64,000 nt of DNA from Terriglobales bacterium (GCA_025934735.1 JAICWP010000014.1:1-64000); one strand, 5' to 3'; shown: positions 26,867 through 38,910, counted from the first letter of the stretch. A program made the numbers and translations. Notes: generated from the letters alone by a model not told the origin.

Positions 26867-29800
26867 CTATTCCGCTAGAGCCAGCGGCGGGATCAGCCGA
26901 TAGCGGCGGCGGGTCTGGTAGCGTCGCAAGTAGCTGCGATAGGCCGCCGTGCTGTGCGCCGTACCCGCATAGGGATAACGGCGCATGGCCGCGAAGGGCA
27001 GCGGGCCCGTGCTGTCCCCGGCTAGCGTATTCGGTTCGTTGTCCTTGGCCCAACCCGCCAGATAGAGGAAAAAGTCCCGCTGCCAGCCCAGATGTGGCGC
27101 CGGAAAGGCGTGCGCATCGAATGCCAAGCTCAGTTCATCGCCAGGCCCCATCACTACCACCTGGTCGTCGCGGCGCTCCACCACGGGCCGGACATCGCCG
27201 TACCGCGTGTAGATTCCCGGGGCCGGGTCCCACGGCGCGTTGTCGTCCAACTCTGCGTAATTAACTTCGTCTGGCTTTATCTGCGCCGGATCGGAATGGG
27301 GTGTGCTGAACCCGCGATAATGCAAATTGGCGCTGAGACCTGCTGCCTCGCTGCTCGGCCGCAACCGCCGCTCATTCATGGTAAAGAAGATCCGGTCCCA
27401 ATAAACACACAGGTTGGTAACTATGCGCACGTGGTGGTCAGCGGAAAGAAATTTGCCCGTCAAGTCTACGCGCATGGTGCGACTGGTGCCGCTGGGCAGG
27501 CCCATGTCAGGGACCACCGTCACCCATTTGCCATCTCCGTCACGCACCTGCAGATATGGGCCGACCATCTGAGTTTTCTGCGAAGTCAGCGCCCGGGCGC
27601 TGTTCGAATCCGGCCATAAGACCCAGCCTTGGAGCCAGAGGGCGATGTGTTGCGATTCCGGCAGTGACCCCAAATCGAGAGTCAGCGTGTGCAGATTCCC
27701 CAGCCCCGGGATGCGCTGCCGTTGAAAACCCGCAACGTACTGGCTGTCGTCCTTTTCCAGCAAGGGCAACACGTTGTGCCCGTAATCATCCACTGCCGAC
27801 GCCGGTGCATGCTCGCCGCGAACGGCGTATAGAGCGGGAATCTGAGGCGTGGAACTATAGATCTCATTGGCATAAATCTTTTCTTCCGCAGGATGGTCCA
27901 CCGCCAGCAGTTTCACCTGGTCGAAGTAATCCACCTCGCGCATTTCGTCCGTAAAGCGCACCAGGTAACGCCCATTCTGCGGCGCGAACGCGTGCGGCAG
28001 GCGCACGAATTCCTGCGGGTTGGCTTGCGCCAGCGAACCGTCGGGCTGCAGTTCGCCCAGAGGCGCCGCTCCCAGTACATCAGTGACGAAGGCAAATCTC
28101 TGCCCGTCCCAGACATACACGAAGGGGCAGGAACTCGCCAATCGTTCCGATTCGCGAACCCGCACGGTCTTCTCCGTTGCCACATTCAGCGCGTTCTGCA
28201 CGATAGCGTTGGGCCAAGTAACCCGCACCACATCCACCCGCGGCAGATTGCCGGTAAAGACGCGTACCGGCGAGCGCTCCACCTGTACCTTGTGATAGAA
28301 GTTTCCCGCCTTCACTTCCACCACCGCGCCAATTCCCTTCTGGTTGCTCTTCTCCCCAGCCAACGCAATTTCCACCCAAGTCGGCCTGGGACTCTGTCTG
28401 TGCCGCACCTCGAGTCCGTCGCCGGCTGCCGTGGCCAGCAGATCGAGTTCACCGGGATTACGCAGCCAGGCGGGCACGATGCTGGAGTAAGGCGTTACCG
28501 CGACACTCAGGTTGACGGGCACTGCACGAAATATGCCGCCTCGGTTGAGCAGCAGGCGCAATTTCCCTTGTGCATCCAGGGCCAGCAGGTCGTCGAAGCC
28601 GTCGCCATCGAAGTCGGCTACTGCGCCGCGGCCGGCAAAACTCCCAGGCGGAGGGTCAATCGCCGGCACACCCCTGAGCGCGACAAAACTCGCGTTGCCA
28701 CGGTTCAGCAGCACCCGCGGACCAGACGTTGTCCACAGCACCAGGTCGAAGTTGCCGTCGTGGTTGAAATCGGCAACCTGAGCCTGGGTTGCGGCAACTC
28801 GCAAGCTAGTCTCGGCGCGCGCGCTGAAGCGGGCGCCACCACGATTGATGTAGAGCAATGGCGGGCCGTCATCGCGCAGAACCAGCAGATCGGTGAAGGC
28901 ATCCTCGGTGAAATTGGCAAACAGCGCGCCCCTTGCGCGTCCAGCCAAGGCTAATCCGGCGGCTTTCGTAATGTCGGTAAACGTCCCATCTCCGTTGTTG
29001 CGATAGAGATGGCTGGAGGCGCCGGCAAAATCCTGAGGAAAGCGGAAGCTAGCCTTCCGCGGCGCATGCGCCAGATCGGTGTACACGCTGACGAATAAGT
29101 CGAGCAGTCCGTCATTGTCGGCATCGAAGAACAGCGCCTGTGTAGCCAGTTCCCCGCCTGTTCCCTCCAGATGAGCGGCAGCAGTCTTGTCCGTGAATGT
29201 ACCGTTCCCCTGATTCTGATAAACCCGCACGCCGCCCAGGCCCGCAACCATCAGACTCAAGCGGCCGCTGTTGTCATAGTCGGCGAACGTCGCCGAGATA
29301 CTGCCGCCCGGCCCAGCCACGCCCGCCTTATCGGTAACGTCGGTAAAGCTTCCGTCCGCCTCCTGGTGGAGCAGGCGGTTGCTGCCGGCAGGATTCACAA
29401 TGTAGAGGTCAGGCCGCCCATCGCCGTCATAGTCCCCCACCGCCACTGACGTTCCAAACAGAGGCAGCAGGCGCTGGCGTGCATACTCGAGGTTATAGTC
29501 GGAAGCGGCTATGGCCGCCGGCGGTTCGGGCAACGGTTGCAGCCGCGCTTGTCCGATCTCGCTAGCAGACGCGAAAACCACCTTCGGCCACGACGCATTC
29601 TGCCCGGCTTGCAAGGAAGGCGGTAGCACCAGCGCGGTCCCGTACTTCCCTGCTTCCAGCGCAGTTGCCTGCACGGAGATGCCGGGCACGCGCCCGCGAT
29701 ACTTCTGGTGCAGAACCAGATATTTTTGCGCTTCCGGCGGGCGCTTCAGCCGCTCCAGCACCGTGAAGGTGCGGAACAATGCTGCGACGTAGAAATTCTG

Positions 29801-30349
29801 CCCGCGCGCGAAGCCCATATTGTCCACGTGCTGAAAGGCATCGAGCGCCGGTTCCAGCTTGTGCTGGTTCATCTCCACCGCGCCCAGGTTGAACCACGCC
29901 GCCGGATCGCCCGGGTCCGTGGCCGTCACCTCCCTCAGAGCCGCTTCTGCATCGGGATCGCGCCCTTCGCGCTTGTACAGAATTCCCAGGTTGTATTTCA
30001 CCGCGGTGAGCTTCGGGTCCATTTGCCGGGCCGTGGTGAAGGAGCCCAGCGCCTGGTCATAGCGGCCAAGTTGCATCTGCGCCAGCCCCAAGTCGAGATA
30101 ATCGGTGGCCAGTGCGTGACCGGAAGCCACAATCTTGGCGAACTTATCCTGCGCCTGGGCGTATTGCCCCTGCTCGTAGTAGGCCTTGCCCAGGTTGCGC
30201 TCGCTTTGCAAAGCCACCGAGCCGGAATCCGGCACGGCAGCCCCGCGTTCGACCGCGTGCGGATGGTTTGTTGTGTTTTGAGAACCGGCTGGCAACAGCA
30301 TGGCGGTTGCGATGACTACCGCCGCCATGATGCTAGCGATTCGTTTCAC
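26867..30349 (-). CDS. Large TPR - FG-GAP/VCBS propeller - UnbV protein with novel C-terminal region
   Basis: The GTG at 30349 has GAGAGGG five bases upstream and gives about 1160 residues with a signal sequence. The frame is open to 30436, and an ATG at 30328 lacks a Shine-Dalgarno sequence. The order is: TPR repeats (EGQYAQAQDKF-like and EPALDAFQHV-type helices) in the first 220 residues; then six or seven FG-GAP/VCBS blades with DYDGDGRPDLYIVN, DADNDGLLDLFVS and DFDGDGFDDLLALD, calcium-binding DxDxDGxxD loops; an UnbV-like domain (VEVKAGNFYHKVQVERSPV); and about 400 C-terminal residues beginning FVYVWDGQRFAFVTDVLG that I cannot assign. It is the last gene of a four-gene operon, overlapping the previous one by 17 bp. 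It is predicted to be extracytoplasmic. Confidence 0.85.
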   Translation of the reverse strand: MKRIASIMAAVVIATAMLLPAGSQNTTNHPHAVERGAAVPDSGSVALQSERNLGKAYYEQGQYAQAQDKFAKIVASGHALATDYLDLGLAQMQLGRYDQALGSFTTARQMDPKLTAVKYNLGILYKREGRDPDAEAALREVTATDPGDPAAWFNLGAVEMNQHKLEPALDAFQHVDNMGFARGQNFYVAALFRTFTVLERLKRPPEAQKYLVLHQKYRGRVPGISVQATALEAGKYGTALVLPPSLQAGQNASWPKVVFASASEIGQARLQPLPEPPAAIAASDYNLEYARQRLLPLFGTSVAVGDYDGDGRPDLYIVNPAGSNRLLHQEADGSFTDVTDKAGVAGPGGSISATFADYDNSGRLSLMVAGLGGVRVYQNQGNGTFTDKTAAAHLEGTGGELATQALFFDADNDGLLDLFVSVYTDLAHAPRKASFRFPQDFAGASSHLYRNNGDGTFTDITKAAGLALAGRARGALFANFTEDAFTDLLVLRDDGPPLLYINRGGARFSARAETSLRVAATQAQVADFNHDGNFDLVLWTTSGPRVLLNRGNASFVALRGVPAIDPPPGSFAGRGAVADFDGDGFDDLLALDAQGKLRLLLNRGGIFRAVPVNLSVAVTPYSSIVPAWLRNPGELDLLATAAGDGLEVRHRQSPRPTWVEIALAGEKSNQKGIGAVVEVKAGNFYHKVQVERSPVRVFTGNLPRVDVVRVTWPNAIVQNALNVATEKTVRVRESERLASSCPFVYVWDGQRFAFVTDVLGAAPLGELQPDGSLAQANPQEFVRLPHAFAPQNGRYLVRFTDEMREVDYFDQVKLLAVDHPAEEKIYANEIYSSTPQIPALYAVRGEHAPASAVDDYGHNVLPLLEKDDSQYVAGFQRQRIPGLGNLHTLTLDLGSLPESQHIALWLQGWVLWPDSNSARALTSQKTQMVGPYLQVRDGDGKWVTVVPDMGLPSGTSRTMRVDLTGKFLSADHHVRIVTNLCVYWDRIFFTMNERRLRPSSEAAGLSANLHYRGFSTPHSDPAQIKPDEVNYAELDDNAPWDPAPGIYTRYGDVRPVVERRDDQVVVMGPGDELSLAFDAHAFPAPHLGWQRDFFLYLAGWAKDNEPNTLAGDSTGPLPFAAMRRYPYAGTAHSTAAYRSYLRRYQTRRRYRLIPPLALAE

Positions 30350-32399
30350 TACCACCCTCTCGCATTTTGTGCAGCGGCGCGGCTGAGACCGACTGCGCCT
30401 GCCCGCGCGTGCTGAGTCGGAACAGGCCTCCCGCACTGAGCCCGCCCGGCAGCGGCCCGGAGCTCAAATATACCTCGCGCCAACCATCGTTGCCGGCCGG
30501 ACCGACCGCCGCCCACAGATAATTGGCCGGCCCTGGCCTCGGCAGGTCAGCCCAAGGCACGAATTTGCCGCGGCGATTGCGAAGCAACACGCTCGGCCCG
30601 AGTTGCTGCGCATCCAGCCCCCCGCTCACCAGCAGCAGATCGGACCAGCCATCCCCGTCGAAGTCGGCAGCCACCGCCTGCACGGTGCCGTAACATCCGC
30701 TCAGACCCGCCTCGCGCGTGACCTCGCGAAAAGTGCCGTCTCCTTGATTACGAAAGAGGCGCGCCGTGGAACATTTCGTACCCGTCTCCGGCTGCAGCAA
30801 CCAGCGCGCCTCCTGCTCCAGCATGGCCTGTGATGTCACCAGCAAATCGGGCCGGACATCGCGATCATAATCGAAGAAAATGGAACTGTATCCCTGGGCG
30901 CCCAGCCCGGCCAAACCAGCGCGCTGGGTGACATCCTCAAAGTTGCCCCCGCCTTGATTGCGAAAGAGACGCGCCGGGCGTCGCCAAAACTGTACGAAAA
31001 GGTCGGGCTTGCCGTCGCCATCATAATCGGCCACGGCGCAGTCCACCGCCGCAATCGTGCTTGCCAGGCCTGATGAGGCAGTTATGTCTACGAATCGGCT
31101 TCCCGTGTTGCGAAACAGGCGCACGGAACTGTCATTCTCCGCTGTGCCGACCTCCAGCAAATCGAGCTTTCCGCGCCCGGTGAAATTGCCGAAGCAGGCG
31201 CGCGTGGTCGAGCGCTTGCCCGCCAGCCCCGTTGCCGCGGTCACGTCGCGAAAGGTGCCGTCACCCTGATTACGGTAGAGCAGATTCTGCCTGCCGCCGC
31301 TGAGCCCTGGCCGCACAAGATACAAATCGGGGCTGCCATTGCCGCGCAGGTCCACCCAGTACGGCTCCCCGACGTCGTGAAGCCCAGCCAGCCCGGCAGC
31401 GCGGGTCACATCCGCATATTTGCCGTCCTGCCAGCGATAGAGAACGAAATCCACGCCCCCAACTGCCAGGCCGGAATGGCCGTCGCCGGCGAAGCCGGCC
31501 CAGGCGGCCCGCCCGCCTGCACGCACACCAGTCTCCACTTTCATCTGCACCTGGGGCTTGTCTGGCACTTGCTCGTGCACCCTCAACAGGCCAGCGTCGG
31601 CGCCCAGGCCTTCCCGTCGACGCTTGTTCCAATAGGACAACAGCATGGATTTCAGCGCCGCCCGCTGCAGCGCGGTCAGCGGTTTATCCGGGTCGGGCAG
31701 AACGTCGCCCTCGGAAAGCACTCCCTTGGTGGTCAGCTTGCCATCTGCCCGGTACTTGGCCAGAACCTTATCGAAGCAGCGTGCCGCTTCCGCCGAGCGT
31801 CCTTCCAGAAAGAACGTGTAGCCGAGCAGAAACTCGGCCTCTGCCGAGCCCAGCCTGGTGGCCAATTGAAAATCCTGCTCCGCTCGCGCCAGGTTTCCCT
31901 GGTTCAGTTCCAGGCCACCCAGCTCCAGCAGTGGTCCTGCCTGCTCGGTGTAAATCTGCAGCTCGCGCTCGAATGCCTGCTGCGCCGCCGGCAAGTCATG
32001 CGGCGCTCCCGGCGATGCCACCGAGAGCAGTCTGCCCAGTTGTCCATAGGCGCGTCCACTTTCCGGATCCAGCGCGATCAGGCTGCGCAGTTGCTGTTCC
32101 GCTTCTGCATACTCTCCCAGCTCATACAGACTGCTCCCCAGGTAGTACAGCGAGTCCTCATGGCTGGGATTAAGTTGGAGGGCTTCGCGATAGAGTTCAG
32201 CCGCCCGCTCAAACTCGCCCTTACTACGCAGCGCGCCGGCCTGGTCATACGTCGCCCAGAAAGTCGCTACCCGGTCCCGCTCCGCCTGGGTTACTCCCCT
32301 GCTGGCTTGCGCTCCTGCTGCGGAACGAAACCTCGCCACAGTGATAAGAGCCACGCAGACTAGGAACACCGCCGCCAGCCAGGCAGCCGTCCGCTTCAT
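30333..32399 (-). CDS. TPR - FG-GAP/VCBS propeller protein
   Basis: The 688-residue protein has a membrane anchor or signal segment (about 5-25). TPR repeats follow (FERAAELYREALQLNPSHED, YAEAEQQL, LARAEQDFQLATRLG), and then a seven-bladed-type FG-GAP propeller with DYDGDGKPDLFVQF, DYDRDVRPDLLVTS and DFDGDGWSDLLLV. It lacks the C-terminal UnbV domain of its neighbours. Its start overlaps the upstream gene's stop by four bases (ATGA) and its end overlaps the next gene by 17 bp. All this indicates obligatory co-expression. Likely located in the periplasm or on the cell surface. Confidence 0.85.
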   Translation of the reverse strand: MKRTAAWLAAVFLVCVALITVARFRSAAGAQASRGVTQAERDRVATFWATYDQAGALRSKGEFERAAELYREALQLNPSHEDSLYYLGSSLYELGEYAEAEQQLRSLIALDPESGRAYGQLGRLLSVASPGAPHDLPAAQQAFERELQIYTEQAGPLLELGGLELNQGNLARAEQDFQLATRLGSAEAEFLLGYTFFLEGRSAEAARCFDKVLAKYRADGKLTTKGVLSEGDVLPDPDKPLTALQRAALKSMLLSYWNKRRREGLGADAGLLRVHEQVPDKPQVQMKVETGVRAGGRAAWAGFAGDGHSGLAVGGVDFVLYRWQDGKYADVTRAAGLAGLHDVGEPYWVDLRGNGSPDLYLVRPGLSGGRQNLLYRNQGDGTFRDVTAATGLAGKRSTTRACFGNFTGRGKLDLLEVGTAENDSSVRLFRNTGSRFVDITASSGLASTIAAVDCAVADYDGDGKPDLFVQFWRRPARLFRNQGGGNFEDVTQRAGLAGLGAQGYSSIFFDYDRDVRPDLLVTSQAMLEQEARWLLQPETGTKCSTARLFRNQGDGTFREVTREAGLSGCYGTVQAVAADFDGDGWSDLLLVSGGLDAQQLGPSVLLRNRRGKFVPWADLPRPGPANYLWAAVGPAGNDGWREVYLSSGPLPGGLSAGGLFRLSTRGQAQSVSAAPLHKMREGGSETNR

Positions 32400-34186
32400 C
32401 GCGGCTCCTCCTCCACCGTCACCGTCTGGTTGGCGGGCACGTGTTCCAGCACGCGCACTATGCCGCTGGGAAAGGTCACCTGGATGCGCTGCACTTCTTT
32501 TTCGTGATTCAGCCCGAAATGCGCCTCCTGGAAATTCTGCGACAGGTACGACGCCTGACCGCCGATCTGGTCATACTGCTTCTGCCCAGCGGCTACGATC
32601 TCAATCTTCGTACCAAACCCGGTACGATTGCTCCGGGTGCACTTCACCCGCACCTTGATCCAGTTCTTCTTGTTGCCGCCGTCATTGCGCAGCAGCATCG
32701 GCCGGCCTTCCTGGTTGACGATAAACACGTCCATGTCGCCATCGTTGTCGTAATCGGCGAACGCCGCGCCTCGCCCCACATGCAACTGCTGAAACACCGA
32801 TCCGCTGACCGCCCCTACCTCAAAAAAACCGTCCTCGGGGCTTTTCTGCCAGAACAGAACATTCTTCATGGGCACGAGGTGACGCGGGTCCTTGTCGTCC
32901 TGAAAGGTGCTGCCATTTACCACCATCAGGTCGAGTTGGCCGTCATTGTCGTAATCAAAAAACGAGGTGCCCCAGCCAATGGAGTTGAGCGAAATCTGCC
33001 CCAAGCCCACCGTATCGGCCACATCCTCGAAGCGCAGCGGCCCGCGTTTGCCCGCGCCTCCGCGGGTGAAGCGCAGGTTGTCAAACAGCGCGTTCTGCTG
33101 CGCGATCCAGTGAGTGATGAAAATGTCTGGGTCGCCATCCCGGTCCCAGTCGCCCACCGCCAGCCCCATGGCGCCGCGGTAGTCGGAAACCCATGCCTCG
33201 TGCGCAATCGCCTTGAACTTCCCATTGTGCAAATTCAGGTACATTGCACTTTCCGAAACATCGTTGGCTACGTAAAGGTCAGGCCAACCGTCGCCGCTAA
33301 AGTCGTACCACACTGCCGAAAGGCTGCGCCCTTTCACGTCTTCTACGCCCGCCTGCTTCCCTACTTCGGTGAACGTTCCATTCCCGCCGTTATGAAACAG
33401 CAAATTGCGCTCCGGCGGGTAGGAGGATGGATTGAGGGTGAACGGCACCAGCGTGGTGTACTGCATGGACGACTTGCTCAGGTCTTCTGAGCGAAAACCA
33501 TATTTCACGTATCCGCAAACATACAGGTCTACTTTGCCATCGCGGTCGTAGTCGCCCCAGGCCACCCCCGTCCAGAAGCCGCGGAATTTATCCAGCCCCG
33601 CTTTCTTGCTGACGTCGGTAAAGGTGCCGTCGCCATTGTTGTGATAAAGGATGATGCGGTCGTAGCTGCTGACCACCAGGTCGAGGCGCCCGTCGTTGTC
33701 GTAGTCGGCCCAGGCGGCGCCCATGCCGATTCCCTTGAAGCCAACGCCCGCACGCTCGGTCACGTCGGTGAAGGTGCCGTCGTGGTTGTTGTGGTAAAGC
33801 CGGTTGCCGCCCGGCGAGTGCGCCATCTGCTCCGGCGTGTAGCTCAGCGGCCCGGCAATATCCACCACGTACAGGTCGGGCCAGCCGTCGCCGTCATAGT
33901 CGCCCCAAGCCGCGCCCGAACCCATGTCTTCCGGCAATTGCGTGCTGCGCGTGAAGGCAAAGTGCGTGAAGTGGATACCCGCCTGCTCCGTCACGTCCGT
34001 AAAACGCACCCGCGGATAGTCAGGCGGCAGCGAACGCGAAAGGTCTTGCGTGATTCCTTCCACCTGCTGTCCCGGCACATAGGGCCGCCGATGCCGGTGG
34101 GCCAGCAGCAGCGTACTGCCCGCCACCAGCACCACCCCGCAGCAGGCCACGGTGTACTTCCACATCAGCTGTTTGCGGCGGCTCAC
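32396..34186 (-). CDS. FG-GAP/ASPIC-UnbV (CRTAC1-like) propeller protein
   Basis: The 596-residue protein starts with a single membrane anchor (about 8-26). It then has repeated propeller blades with DYDGDGWPDLYVVD, DYDNDGRLDLVVSS, DYDRDGKVDLYVCG, DWDRDGDPDIFITH and DYDNDGDMDVFIV. The last about 100 residues are an ASPIC/UnbV domain, with RSNRTGFGTKIEIVAAG, QASYLSQNFQEAHFGL and VQRIQVTFPSGIVRVLEHV. Such proteins are abundant in Acidobacteriota and Planctomycetota but their role is not established. It lies 4 bp downstream of the multihaem cytochrome gene and overlaps the next gene by 4 bp. Confidence 0.9.
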   Translation of the reverse strand: MSRRKQLMWKYTVACCGVVLVAGSTLLLAHRHRRPYVPGQQVEGITQDLSRSLPPDYPRVRFTDVTEQAGIHFTHFAFTRSTQLPEDMGSGAAWGDYDGDGWPDLYVVDIAGPLSYTPEQMAHSPGGNRLYHNNHDGTFTDVTERAGVGFKGIGMGAAWADYDNDGRLDLVVSSYDRIILYHNNGDGTFTDVSKKAGLDKFRGFWTGVAWGDYDRDGKVDLYVCGYVKYGFRSEDLSKSSMQYTTLVPFTLNPSSYPPERNLLFHNGGNGTFTEVGKQAGVEDVKGRSLSAVWYDFSGDGWPDLYVANDVSESAMYLNLHNGKFKAIAHEAWVSDYRGAMGLAVGDWDRDGDPDIFITHWIAQQNALFDNLRFTRGGAGKRGPLRFEDVADTVGLGQISLNSIGWGTSFFDYDNDGQLDLMVVNGSTFQDDKDPRHLVPMKNVLFWQKSPEDGFFEVGAVSGSVFQQLHVGRGAAFADYDNDGDMDVFIVNQEGRPMLLRNDGGNKKNWIKVRVKCTRSNRTGFGTKIEIVAAGQKQYDQIGGQASYLSQNFQEAHFGLNHEKEVQRIQVTFPSGIVRVLEHVPANQTVTVEEEPR

Positions 34187-34190
34187 CCGC

Positions 34191-36365
34191 TCACCTGCCC
34201 GCGCCGGCGCTGGTGTTCGTACGCGGGCCCGCCGCGGCGCGATGCCGGACTGCCCCGCTCTCCACCGGGATGGTGCGCGTAACCGTGGTCATGTCGGTGA
34301 TGGGCGCTGTCAACCCCGATTTCTCTCCGAAAATAAAGTTGAGCAGGAACTGGTCCGCCTTGCGATAGCGCAGCCGCGCTTCCACCAGCACCGTGCCAGG
34401 AGGCGCTTTCTTGACTTGTCTGCCGGTAGCCGCCGCACTGTGCACTCCAGCTTTCGCGGGCAATCCAGTGTAGGCAAAGCTGTACTCCGCCGTGTCTGAA
34501 AATCCCGGGAACAGCGAACGCCGGTAGCGCACCCCCACCATTTCCCACAGGTTGTGCCGGTCAATCAGGTTGCCGTTCTGGTCCACCGGCTCTGCTTTGA
34601 ACATGAATGTGCCCGGCTGGATAAACCCACGTGGGTCGACGGCCCCGTTGGTGTACAGCGTGCGCCCCTGCTCGTCCACTACCTCCAGTTCCACCCATGC
34701 CTGGATGATGTCGAGGGGGCCGGTGGGAAAGTCATGACCAACCTTGTTGGAAGTGATCACCAGCTTCACCGGCACTTTTTCTCCGACGTGAATCGTTGCC
34801 GGCAAGTTCAGGTCTATTCCAACCGCCGGCCCCTTGCTCCATTTGCTGGCAATCTCCGGGATCACGTATTTGCCCTGCAGCCATTCCTTTGTCAGCTCCA
34901 CCTGCTTTTGCCAGCCCGGAAGCTTGAGCAGCGCCGGGATCATCAGGTTGGACGCGATGAAGCGGTGACTGCGCACTTTGCCGTCCCTCGCCGTGCGGTT
35001 GTAATCGAAATCGTCGCCCGCCGCCGGGTCTTGCGAAGCGACCAGCGGCATGTGGCACTCGCGGCACTCGATGGTGGTGCGCGCGTTGCCGGGATGGTTC
35101 CACCGGCTCTCCCGCCAATTGTCATACTGGTTTTGCAACTGCACCCAGCCCACGTTGTTGATCTCCTGGTCCACGAACTGCTTGTGGCAGGCGGCGCAGT
35201 ACTCGGGCGTCTTAAACAGCCGTTTGCTCAAGTCTGCCACATGCTGCCGGGGGTAAGCGCGGATCAGAAAATCGCGGGAAAAGCGGTTGGCCTGCGTGGG
35301 GTGCCGGTTGTACTCGAGTTCGAACATGTAGCGCGCCGGCTGCGCAATTACGTAGTTGGCGTTGCCTTTCAGGTCCACCTTGCGCAGCGAGTGGCAGGAC
35401 AGGCAGGAAACGCCCTCCTGGAACCCTTCCAGCGCGGTCAGCTTCTCATTGGGAATAAAAAGGTTCTTGGTGCCGGAGAACAGCGAGATAGGATCGTGGC
35501 AACCGCCGCAGTAACGCGTGGATTCCGGCCCGTTCTGCCTGGCCATGTTCGTCTGCACCGCCTGAAATGCCGGGTCCATGGCTGAATAACGGTGCGCGCT
35601 CGACTCCCACTCCTGCACAATCTCTTCATGACACCCTGAGGTGCCGCAGGAGCGCGAGCCGGAGAGTTCGGCGACGTCCATTGCACCGCCAGTTGAAGTG
35701 CGCGCCAGGCTGGGCGCAAAGGGCCGATCTTTGCCGTACTTGAAGCTGTAGTCGGTGGGAAAAATGTTGTGCAGGCGTGCCGGGGTGTAGGCATAGGCAG
35801 CCAGCGCCACCCCCGCCAGGCATGCCGCCGTGAACAGGAGAGCGGCTTTGCCGAAATGCCCGGCGGCCGCTGAAGTTACCGTGCTCTCCGCCGCTGCTTT
35901 TTTTCGTGCGAGCGAGAAGCTGAGCCACACGTGGGTGGCAACGAACCCCAGAATCGCGAACGTTGTGATGATGTGCACCGCATCCCAGCCGTAGCTCAGC
36001 CGGGTGCCGGCAATTCCATTCCAGGTCACCACGCCGCCGGAGATCAGGCACAGCAGCACCGCCGCGCCTCCCAGGTAGCCCAGGATCTGGATGTGACTCA
36101 GGGGGCTGTTCCAGTACCGCGCCAGATGCCGGAGGGTGTACCACAGGCATGGAACCACAAAAAGGATACCGATAAAGGTGTGCAGCAGGACCGTGACCTG
36201 CACCGGCTGGCTGAAAGGCAACAGCCATATGGCCAGCCCGCTGAGCGCGCCAAAGGCGAGAAAACCGGCGGTCATTATGGCCAGCCGCGCGCGCCATTGC
36301 CGCGCCTGTTCAGCGGCGCGAACAAGGTTGGAGCCCACACCCTGGTTTCCGACATGCTCCTGCAT
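34191..36365 (-). CDS. Membrane cytochrome b-like domain fused to multihaem cytochrome c
   Basis: The 724-residue protein has about five membrane helices in its first 195 residues. His62, His80, His131 and His145 lie in or near them. His131 and His145 are 14 apart in one helix, as in haem-b proteins that bind two haems. The extracytoplasmic part has haem-c motifs CGGCH (286), CLSCH (321), CAACH (390) and CRECH (434), plus an atypical CX4CH site CGTSGCH (240-246). A C-terminal region of about 220 residues is beta-rich (FPTGPLDIIQAWVELEVVDEQ broken by normal loops). It probably moves electrons across or out of the inner membrane. It is the first gene of the four-gene propeller operon. Confidence 0.85.
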   Translation of the reverse strand: MQEHVGNQGVGSNLVRAAEQARQWRARLAIMTAGFLAFGALSGLAIWLLPFSQPVQVTVLLHTFIGILFVVPCLWYTLRHLARYWNSPLSHIQILGYLGGAAVLLCLISGGVVTWNGIAGTRLSYGWDAVHIITTFAILGFVATHVWLSFSLARKKAAAESTVTSAAAGHFGKAALLFTAACLAGVALAAYAYTPARLHNIFPTDYSFKYGKDRPFAPSLARTSTGGAMDVAELSGSRSCGTSGCHEEIVQEWESSAHRYSAMDPAFQAVQTNMARQNGPESTRYCGGCHDPISLFSGTKNLFIPNEKLTALEGFQEGVSCLSCHSLRKVDLKGNANYVIAQPARYMFELEYNRHPTQANRFSRDFLIRAYPRQHVADLSKRLFKTPEYCAACHKQFVDQEINNVGWVQLQNQYDNWRESRWNHPGNARTTIECRECHMPLVASQDPAAGDDFDYNRTARDGKVRSHRFIASNLMIPALLKLPGWQKQVELTKEWLQGKYVIPEIASKWSKGPAVGIDLNLPATIHVGEKVPVKLVITSNKVGHDFPTGPLDIIQAWVELEVVDEQGRTLYTNGAVDPRGFIQPGTFMFKAEPVDQNGNLIDRHNLWEMVGVRYRRSLFPGFSDTAEYSFAYTGLPAKAGVHSAAATGRQVKKAPPGTVLVEARLRYRKADQFLLNFIFGEKSGLTAPITDMTTVTRTIPVESGAVRHRAAAGPRTNTSAGAGR

Positions 36366-36622
36366 GGCACTCCTCCATGATTAGTGCTGAGCAGGACGCG
36401 GTGGGCCTGGCCGCCCCAGCAGGTCCCCACCCGCCGCGCGGCCACACGTGCCTGGTTCTCGATGCTTTTTATCAAACCTGAGCACAGCAGGAAGTGACCC
36501 ATGTCACACGTTACTGTGAGGTGGTGGCGTGGAGGAAGAGGTAGTGGTGCCGGCGACCCCACCCGCGAACCACCGCGCCGGGCGAAGCTTCATTCTCTGC
36601 CAACCTTTCACCCCCCTCGCAC

Positions 36623-37167: not shown

Positions 37168-38910
37168 TCACTTCCGCAGTTGCCCCGCCCGCTCCTGCTC
37201 CCGTTTTGCGTCAGCCGCACGTCCCAGGTGCTGGTAGGCCTCGGCCAGCGTGGCATGCGCCTCCGCCATCTCCGGCAGGCGCGCCACCGCGATTTCCAGG
37301 TGCGTGGCCGCGCCCTTCCAATCTCCGGTGTGGGCCAGCGCCTCGCCCATTTCGTAGTAGGCCCAGGCGGCCTGCGGTTGGAGCTCGATCGCTTTCCGCA
37401 AAAACGGAGCAGCCTGAGCGTATTGCCGCTGCTGCATCGCTGCCATTCCCGCCGCGAACTGCGCCAGGAACATCCCCGGATGGCCCTTCACCACCGCCTG
37501 CAACGCGGCGCTCGCCCTTTGCGCCTTGCCATCCTCGATTTCCAACATGGCGCCTTCCACTTTGTTGGCCAGCGCGATCTCGTCTTTGGGATCGGTGCCC
37601 GTGACCGCCGTCTCATTCGGCGAAACCGATTTCTGCAATCCGACGTAGCCCAGCGACGCCAATTTCTGCAGCTCGCTGGAACTCAACTGAGCGCTGCCGC
37701 TCGCCTTGCCCGTCATACGGCTATCGAAAGCCAGCAACTGCGTCGCCATCGTGCCGGCGGTGGCTTGCGAATTGCCTGCCAGGTTGTGCGAGCAACCGGG
37801 ATCGGCTTCCACGTCGTACAGTTCAGCCTTGGGAGCTCGGATGTATAGATACTTTCCCGCCCGCCACGACTCCAGCCGGCTCCAGCCGAATGCATCCCGC
37901 GAATACTCCGAGCGTGCGTAAGCCGCCTCGCCCGTGCCCGCCTGCCGCATTGCCCGCAGCAGCGACTGGCCCTGCATTTGCGGCGGCACTGGCAGGCCGG
38001 CCAATTCCAGCATCGTGGGTGCAACGTCCACCAGGCGCACGTGCGGCGCCGGCTTTCCCGCACGGTTTTGCGGCAATTTCACCAGCAGCGGCACGCGGAC
38101 GGTATCGTCATACAGAAAAACGCCGTGCGTCTCCTCGCCGTGGGCTCCCAGCGATTCGCCGTGGTCACCGGCCACCACGATCAGCGCGCCGTCATAGACC
38201 TTGCGCGCCCGCAGCGCCGTCAATAACTTGCCCACCTGTGCGTCCGCGTACTTGATCTCGCCGTTGTAAGCCGAGCCCGCGCGCGCGTAGCCGGCCGGCG
38301 GCTGGTAGGGCGCATGTGGATCGTTCAACTCCAGCCAAAGAAAGAAGGGACCCTTCCCCGGTCGCTGCAGCCAGGTCACGGCACGCGCCGCCACTTCACC
38401 GCCTCTTCGTTCTACCGTGCCATAGCGGCTTTCACCCGCTTGCGGCAGGCGAAATCCTGCGTCGTACGTTTCAAAACCGCGGTCAAAGCCGGGCGCAAAA
38501 CCATCGCGCGGATCGAGCGCGATCGTGCCCACAAACGCCGCCGTGCGGTATCCCGCCCCGTGCAGCAAGTCCGGCAGGTAGGGCAGTGAGTCTGCCAGCC
38601 CCGCGCCAAATTCACTCACGTGGTTATAAGGAGGATAGGTGCCAGTCAACAGCGCGGCGTGCGAAGCCAGCGTGCGCGGCGACTGCGCGTAGGCGTGCTC
38701 GAAGGCGACACTCTGCTTCGCCAGCGCGTCCAGGTTCGGCGTCAGCCTTGCCTTGGATCCCAGAAAGCCCATGCGGTCGGCACGGGTCGAGTCCAGCGTT
38801 ATAAGAACGATGTTGGGCTTTTGCGCGGCAAACAGGCTGGCCGAAATCATCAGCAGCACAGCCAGAGTGCACCCGCGCATGAATCTTGTCGTCGGGCGGC
38901 ACATTCTCAC
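37168..38910 (-). CDS. Sulfatase-like (alkaline phosphatase superfamily) hydrolase with C-terminal TPR repeats
   Basis: The 580-residue protein has a signal peptide ending about SLFAAQ. A sulfatase-fold catalytic domain follows: IVLITLDSTRADRMG metal-binding Asp, and later VVAGDHGESLGAHGEETHG. At the place of the sulfatase formylglycine Cys/Ser (C-x-P-S-R) this protein has TLASHAALLTG, with Thr80 as the likely nucleophile. It may therefore be a phosphatase, phosphodiesterase or phosphotransferase rather than a sulfatase. After a linker containing LGYVGL, three to four TPR repeats end the protein. It starts 6 bp after the aminotransferase gene stop. Confidence 0.85.
   Translation of the reverse strand: MRMCRPTTRFMRGCTLAVLLMISASLFAAQKPNIVLITLDSTRADRMGFLGSKARLTPNLDALAKQSVAFEHAYAQSPRTLASHAALLTGTYPPYNHVSEFGAGLADSLPYLPDLLHGAGYRTAAFVGTIALDPRDGFAPGFDRGFETYDAGFRLPQAGESRYGTVERRGGEVAARAVTWLQRPGKGPFFLWLELNDPHAPYQPPAGYARAGSAYNGEIKYADAQVGKLLTALRARKVYDGALIVVAGDHGESLGAHGEETHGVFLYDDTVRVPLLVKLPQNRAGKPAPHVRLVDVAPTMLELAGLPVPPQMQGQSLLRAMRQAGTGEAAYARSEYSRDAFGWSRLESWRAGKYLYIRAPKAELYDVEADPGCSHNLAGNSQATAGTMATQLLAFDSRMTGKASGSAQLSSSELQKLASLGYVGLQKSVSPNETAVTGTDPKDEIALANKVEGAMLEIEDGKAQRASAALQAVVKGHPGMFLAQFAAGMAAMQQRQYAQAAPFLRKAIELQPQAAWAYYEMGEALAHTGDWKGAATHLEIAVARLPEMAEAHATLAEAYQHLGRAADAKREQERAGQLRK

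Follow-up and report, generated by a model that had tools for sequence, protein, structure and literature searches.

A four-gene operon joining a di-haem b/penta-haem c cytochrome to CRTAC1-type propeller proteins belongs to a gene set found in at least 14 bacterial phyla and probably encodes an undescribed low-oxygen electron-transfer complex

The 64,000-nucleotide stretch of Terriglobales DNA analysed here (the window) carries four adjacent ORFs on the minus strand, running from 36365 to 26867. A sequence-only reading had described an operon of four genes with spacings of +4, -4 and -17 bp, and translation recovered all four ORFs at that place, with the spacings holding when the start of gene 4 is taken to be the GTG at 30349, which immediately precedes its signal-peptide-like segment (the longest ORF begins at 30436). 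Gene 1 (34191..36365) encodes a 724 aa protein that, by translation, structural model and fold match, combines a five-TM di-haem b domain, a penta-haem c domain and an Ig-like domain. Gene 2 (32396..34186, 596 aa) encodes a membrane-anchored CRTAC1-type propeller (FG-GAP and UnbV/ASPIC) as judged by Pfam and synteny, and gene 3 (30333..32399, 688 aa) encodes a protein with an N-terminal anchor, a TPR domain and an FG-GAP propeller. Gene 4 (26867..30349) encodes a signal peptide, TPR, an FG-GAP propeller, a UnbV-like region and a conserved C-terminal domain (26867..28156) that belongs to no named family and whose middle part resembles a jelly roll of the carbohydrate-binding-module kind. A ribosome-binding-like GGAGGAG lies 5' of the gene 1 ATG, and a Crp/Fnr-type operator, TGTGACATGGGTCACT (36493..36508, minus strand), is located some 128 bp upstream of where gene 1 starts with its ATG; scans for sigma-70 promoters and terminators gave matches not above chance. 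About 800 bp upstream of the operon, at 37168-38910 of the window and on the same strand, is a gene for a sulfatase fused to TPR repeats.

The predicted structure of the gene 1 product (mean pLDDT 73) begins with five long membrane helices (residues 10-48, 53-84, 91-119, 125-160 and 166-192), continues into the haem domain and ends in an Ig-like beta sandwich (~511-703). Four membrane histidines, His62, His80, His131 and His145, are invariant in 61/61 sequences and form two pairs on two of the helices, spaced for two stacked b haems at these predicted sites. The earlier proposal of a di-haem b domain had placed His131 and His145 in one helix, as the model does, but had overlooked the partner residues, His62 and His80, which lie in a second helix. 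If the N-terminus is inside, the His62/His131 pair would be the nearer to the periplasm. When eight cytochrome members were compared with profiles, DUF4405 matched only one (E 4e-6) and cytochrome b561 likewise matched one. The five c-haem sites that had been counted are present as one CX4CH (240-246) and four CXXCH motifs (286-290, 321-325, 390-394 and 434-438), and all of their cysteines and histidines are invariant in the 61 sequences, which come from 14 phylum-level groups. At least five further histidines (258, 375, 467, 544 and 604) are invariant in the same set and could be the distal ligands of all five haems, which would make electron transfer likelier than catalysis.

The c-haem part of gene 1 together with the Ig-like domain has the arrangement of the penta-haem cytochrome c552 of Thermochromatium tepidum (PDB entry 5ze8), with five c haems and an Ig-like domain. 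Foldseek retrieved this structure at E 5e-10, and superposition gave Z 21.9 at 3.7 A over a common fold of 338 of 385 residues, with all other rows at Z <10; a sequence profile comparison also matched (E 7e-6). Nothing in the solved chain (435 residues) corresponds to the five-helix membrane domain of gene 1. To our knowledge, this cytochrome c552 has no known function.

Two known inner-membrane systems resemble gene 1 more broadly. The CbcL/MtrH/MtoC proteins likewise join a di-haem b membrane domain to a multihaem c domain and link the quinone pool to the periplasm, according to the consulted portion of PMC6295460. However, CbcL carries nine c haems in its N-terminal half and six helices in its C-terminal half (PMC6295460, same portion), whereas gene 1 has the reverse order, with five helices first in the model and then five c haems and the Ig domain. 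As such, gene 1 lacks the N-terminal c haems and C-terminal six-helix HydC/FdnI-like b domain by which that group is recognised. Also unlike CbcL as it is described there, relatives of gene 1 are adjoined by a CRTAC1 propeller gene wherever the contig reaches far enough (among the best 80 of 374 relatives). ImcH, like gene 1, has membrane helices at its N-terminus and a multihaem c domain after them, but it has three helices and seven CX2CH motifs, against the five helices and five c-haem sites of gene 1, and the consulted portion of PMC6295460 mentions neither a di-haem b domain nor a propeller partner for it. Our best reading of this comparison, as far as that portion describes the two systems, is that gene 1 may work like CbcL or ImcH at the inner membrane while being a member of neither.

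The sequence-only reading had assigned TPR and UnbV domains to all three downstream propeller proteins. FG-GAP repeats are indeed present in the products of genes 2-4, but the remaining domains are distributed unevenly. Gene 2 matches FG-GAP (PF13517) and UnbV (PF07593), both over cut-off, and has no TPR match in Pfam; it thus shares the propeller-plus-UnbV composition of the CRTAC1/ASPIC-UnbV family (e.g., human CRTAC1, 9etn), differing from the human protein in its membrane anchor and in belonging to a subfamily that is linked to the cytochrome and has invariant residues of its own (e.g., His359-Trp360 and Gln363). Pfam finds TPR and FG-GAP in gene 3 with no UnbV match, and in gene 4 it finds TPR and FG-GAP, with UnbV sub-threshold in the window copy and above threshold in one homologue. 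The region of about 400 residues that had been singled out as matching no recognised family is the C-terminal ~420 residues of gene 4. In the window copy these residues match nothing in Pfam at E<1; 12 relatives gave no convincing Pfam match, and no PDB sequence matched. Fold comparison gave a middling jelly-roll likeness, with a best Z of 9.3 over 122 residues.

All three of these proteins carry N-terminal export or anchor signals. In genes 2 and 3 a hydrophobic segment is followed by basic residues and a clear cleavage site is absent; a strong N-terminal hydrophobic segment recurs in 59/67 gene-2 homologues, and some gene 3 and gene 4 homologues have a lipoprotein-like look. The uncleaved-looking anchors of genes 2 and 3 point to the periplasmic face of the inner membrane. 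This bears on the original suggestion of a surface or extracellular propeller scaffold, and on the reading built on it, in which the cytochrome feeds electrons to the surface for extracellular transfer. Such a role would accord with the likeness of the inner-membrane step to CbcL and ImcH and with the occurrence of CbcL in many phyla (PMC6295460, in the portion consulted). Nevertheless, the host genome (99.8% complete) has no PF11854 match and thus no recognisable MtrB/PioB outer-membrane porin, no outer-membrane cytochrome or porin recurs beside the operon in the relatives' loci, and genes 2 and 3 look anchored to the inner membrane. We therefore set the surface scaffold aside and regard extracellular electron transfer as improbable; judged from the sequences, these proteins more plausibly form a membrane-bound assembly in the periplasm.

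A scan of genome contigs yielded 374 relatives of the cytochrome, the best 80 of which were analysed (51-67% identity, nearly full length). In 77 of these 80, a gene-2 homologue lies directly downstream on the same strand, and in the other three (L083, L133 and L153) the contig ends at that point. The distances among gene 1 and among gene 2 sequences are strongly correlated: Mantel r is 0.91, while permutations reached at most 0.22. Of the tree rows, 57 could be classified, and these belong to 14 phylum-level groups; in this quick tree the window sits among Acidobacteriota and branching mostly follows phyla, so that old inheritance explains more than transfer. The module also occurs on a contig titled Akkermansia muciniphila (L154), possibly a mislabelled or contaminated bin.

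The TPR partner is encoded separately in 22 loci, is fused to gene 2 in 27 and is fused to FG-GAP, as in the window, in 7, a further 14 loci being truncated or uncalled. The complete same-strand order of genes 1-2-3-4 was found in one other acidobacterium (L097, whose gene 4 domain is 48% identical) and in seven Bacteroidota loci where gene 3 has TPR only (L109, L111, L116, L122, L127, L128 and L157), making the four-gene form rarer than the two- or three-gene core. The conserved order anticipated for relatives of this operon thus extends beyond Acidobacteriota for genes 1 and 2 but is less common for the full set, and no known respiratory complex appears as a partner within the operon.

The cytochrome relatives divide into two families, a short form of the window type with all four membrane histidines and a long form (about 810-1030 aa) in which only His62 and His131 are retained and which in most cases has the TPR domain fused to its own C-terminus. 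The host genome encodes one of each. Its long-form cytochrome, which also carries the TPR fusion and retains one of the two b-haem histidine pairs, lies in a second operon (L041, G000:C38:14500-34000) with three propeller genes, whose products include CRTAC1 and gene-4-like proteins. Inside the window's own family the short form is rare; it occurs in 17 of 297 genomes of the host phylum, and the gene 4 domain accompanies it in 17/17. A profile search from the mixed alignment (A2) was dominated by TPR matches. Across the 297 genomes, with kinship ignored, 73 have both a cytochrome and the gene 4 domain, 14 the cytochrome alone and 29 the gene 4 domain alone (odds 33). Ten host proteins match UnbV, and six of them are encoded outside both cytochrome operons, at five loci, with no haem-motif genes nearby, so that the cytochrome pairing is specific to one CRTAC1 subfamily. 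The host's other CRTAC1/UnbV genes (L161, L162, L163, L164 and L165) adjoin genes for very large exported proteins, roughly 1215-1430 aa, that by eye look like TonB-dependent, Oar-type receptors.

A literature search for CRTAC1 or UnbV proteins with multihaem cytochromes found PMC12758564 alone, which describes HZS-like clusters in which an FG-GAP CRTAC1 gene neighbours multihaem redox proteins of the c554 type. Those clusters share with our operon CRTAC1 and a general c554-type haem domain, and we saw no further gene in common; their redox partners are different, being hydrazine-synthase-like alpha and beta-gamma proteins. In one Marinimicrobia locus (L130:18458-19891) further CRTAC1 genes and one for a hydrazine-synthase-alpha-like protein come after the module, an arrangement that recalls these clusters.

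The operator upstream of gene 1 is the sole TGTGA-N6-TCACW site in the window, where 0.07 were expected. The TGAY-N4-RTCA core is found upstream in 17/67 loci, compared with 1.6 expected from Markov shuffles and 2.9 from density, at the N4 spacing only, and it is present in 16/66 cytochrome promoters versus 10/178 control promoters of the same loci (p 1e-4, kinship ignored). Several of these sites are textbook FNR/DNR boxes, e.g., TTGACTTAGGTCAA. Since the test was prompted by the window's own site, we treat this enrichment as supportive but short of decisive. Crp/Fnr-type genes adjoin five loci of the wider cytochrome family (one confirmed), the iron-sulfur repair protein RIC (YtfE) is encoded near L082, L146 and L152, and L170 has a RIC-like motif; NarK and hemN genes each lie near single loci. 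NosZ accompanies the short-form cytochrome in 7/17 genomes versus 27/280 (p 0.001, kinship ignored), with no enrichment for the remaining cytochrome family; it is absent from the host genome, and we rejected it as an obligate partner for that reason. About seven Bacteroidota loci (e.g., L109:7505-9788) have asparagine-synthase-like and radical SAM (RaSEA-like) genes upstream of the cytochrome, and amidase/permease genes lie beside long-family cytochromes; because both sets of neighbours are clade-limited, we did not use them for function.

The RIC genes near three loci, together with the Crp/Fnr-type operators, would suit a redox stress defence or cofactor repair system responding to nitric oxide or oxygen rather than conserving energy. 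We consider this very doubtful, given that RIC accompanies few loci and that gene 1 appears to have enough conserved ligands for six-coordinate haems, which would argue against direct NO or peroxide chemistry. A respiratory role also has to be placed beside the rest of the host's machinery. Because the host genome encodes cytochrome b, NrfD-type proteins and several haem-copper oxidases, the module is not the host's main route of respiration, and the presence of the cytochrome b and NrfD families led us to reject its use as a substitute for cytochrome bc1 or alternative complex III.

With its di-haem b and five-haem c domains and its coupling to propeller proteins, gene 1 bears out the earlier view of an electron-transfer protein in an undescribed role. 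Building on this architecture and on the conservation, co-inheritance and domain fusions seen in the sequences and the model, we put forward, with about even confidence, a quinone-linked inner-membrane bc complex of its own architecture that would pass electrons to the periplasm with anchored propeller/TPR partners and be expressed at low oxygen. Gene 1 would oxidise quinol in the membrane and relay the electrons by way of the b haems and then the penta-haem head to an acceptor in the periplasm. Gene 2, as the anchored CRTAC1 propeller, and gene 3, as the TPR protein, may bind that head and hold the acceptor or bring it into position, and gene 4, with its propeller, TPR and jelly-roll-like domain, may be an accessory partner. 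Crp/Fnr-family regulators would probably turn the operon on under low-oxygen or nitrosative conditions. This is favoured by the invariant haem ligands, the c552 fold match, gene 2 co-inheritance, the TPR fusions, the co-occurrence of the gene 4 domain, the N4-only operator enrichment, the RIC, NarK and hemN neighbours in some loci and the single-relative matches to DUF4405 and cytochrome b561; we count against it that the operator covers about a quarter of loci and that RIC, NarK and hemN neighbours are few.

Electrons could also run the other way, the propeller/TPR partners bringing an oxidisable periplasmic substrate or donor and the cytochrome feeding the quinone pool. The architecture is neutral as to direction, Fe(III) reducers and Fe(II) oxidisers alike have homologues of CymA and CbcL/MtrH/MtoC (PMC6295460, in the portion consulted), and the jelly-roll-like domain of gene 4 could bind a ligand. 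We nevertheless think this direction unlikely, since Fnr-type operators and NarK and hemN neighbours fit acceptor-side respiration better and Pfam found no dehydrogenase-like fold in genes 2-4.

Each domain type in this quinol-oxidising bc complex, as we prefer to read it, is already known, and their combination did not turn up in the literature searched; the cytochrome itself arranges familiar domains in an order that the portion of the source consulted does not give for CbcL or ImcH. There is a fair chance that it represents a distinct class of respiratory complex. More tentatively, and at somewhat short of even confidence, that class would be a widespread quinone-linked one, anaerobic or low-oxygen, in at least 14 phyla, with the calcium-propeller/TPR protein as an obligate periplasmic subunit of the di-haem b/penta-haem c cytochrome. 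CRTAC1-type proteins range from bacteria to humans, and we found no well-defined bacterial function for them in the literature searched; for one CRTAC1 subfamily there is now a firm partner in the form of an electron-transfer cytochrome, together with a context that can be tested. That cytochrome and propeller are paired almost constantly in 14 phylum-level groups suggests that annotation has overlooked a complex with a respiratory or redox role.
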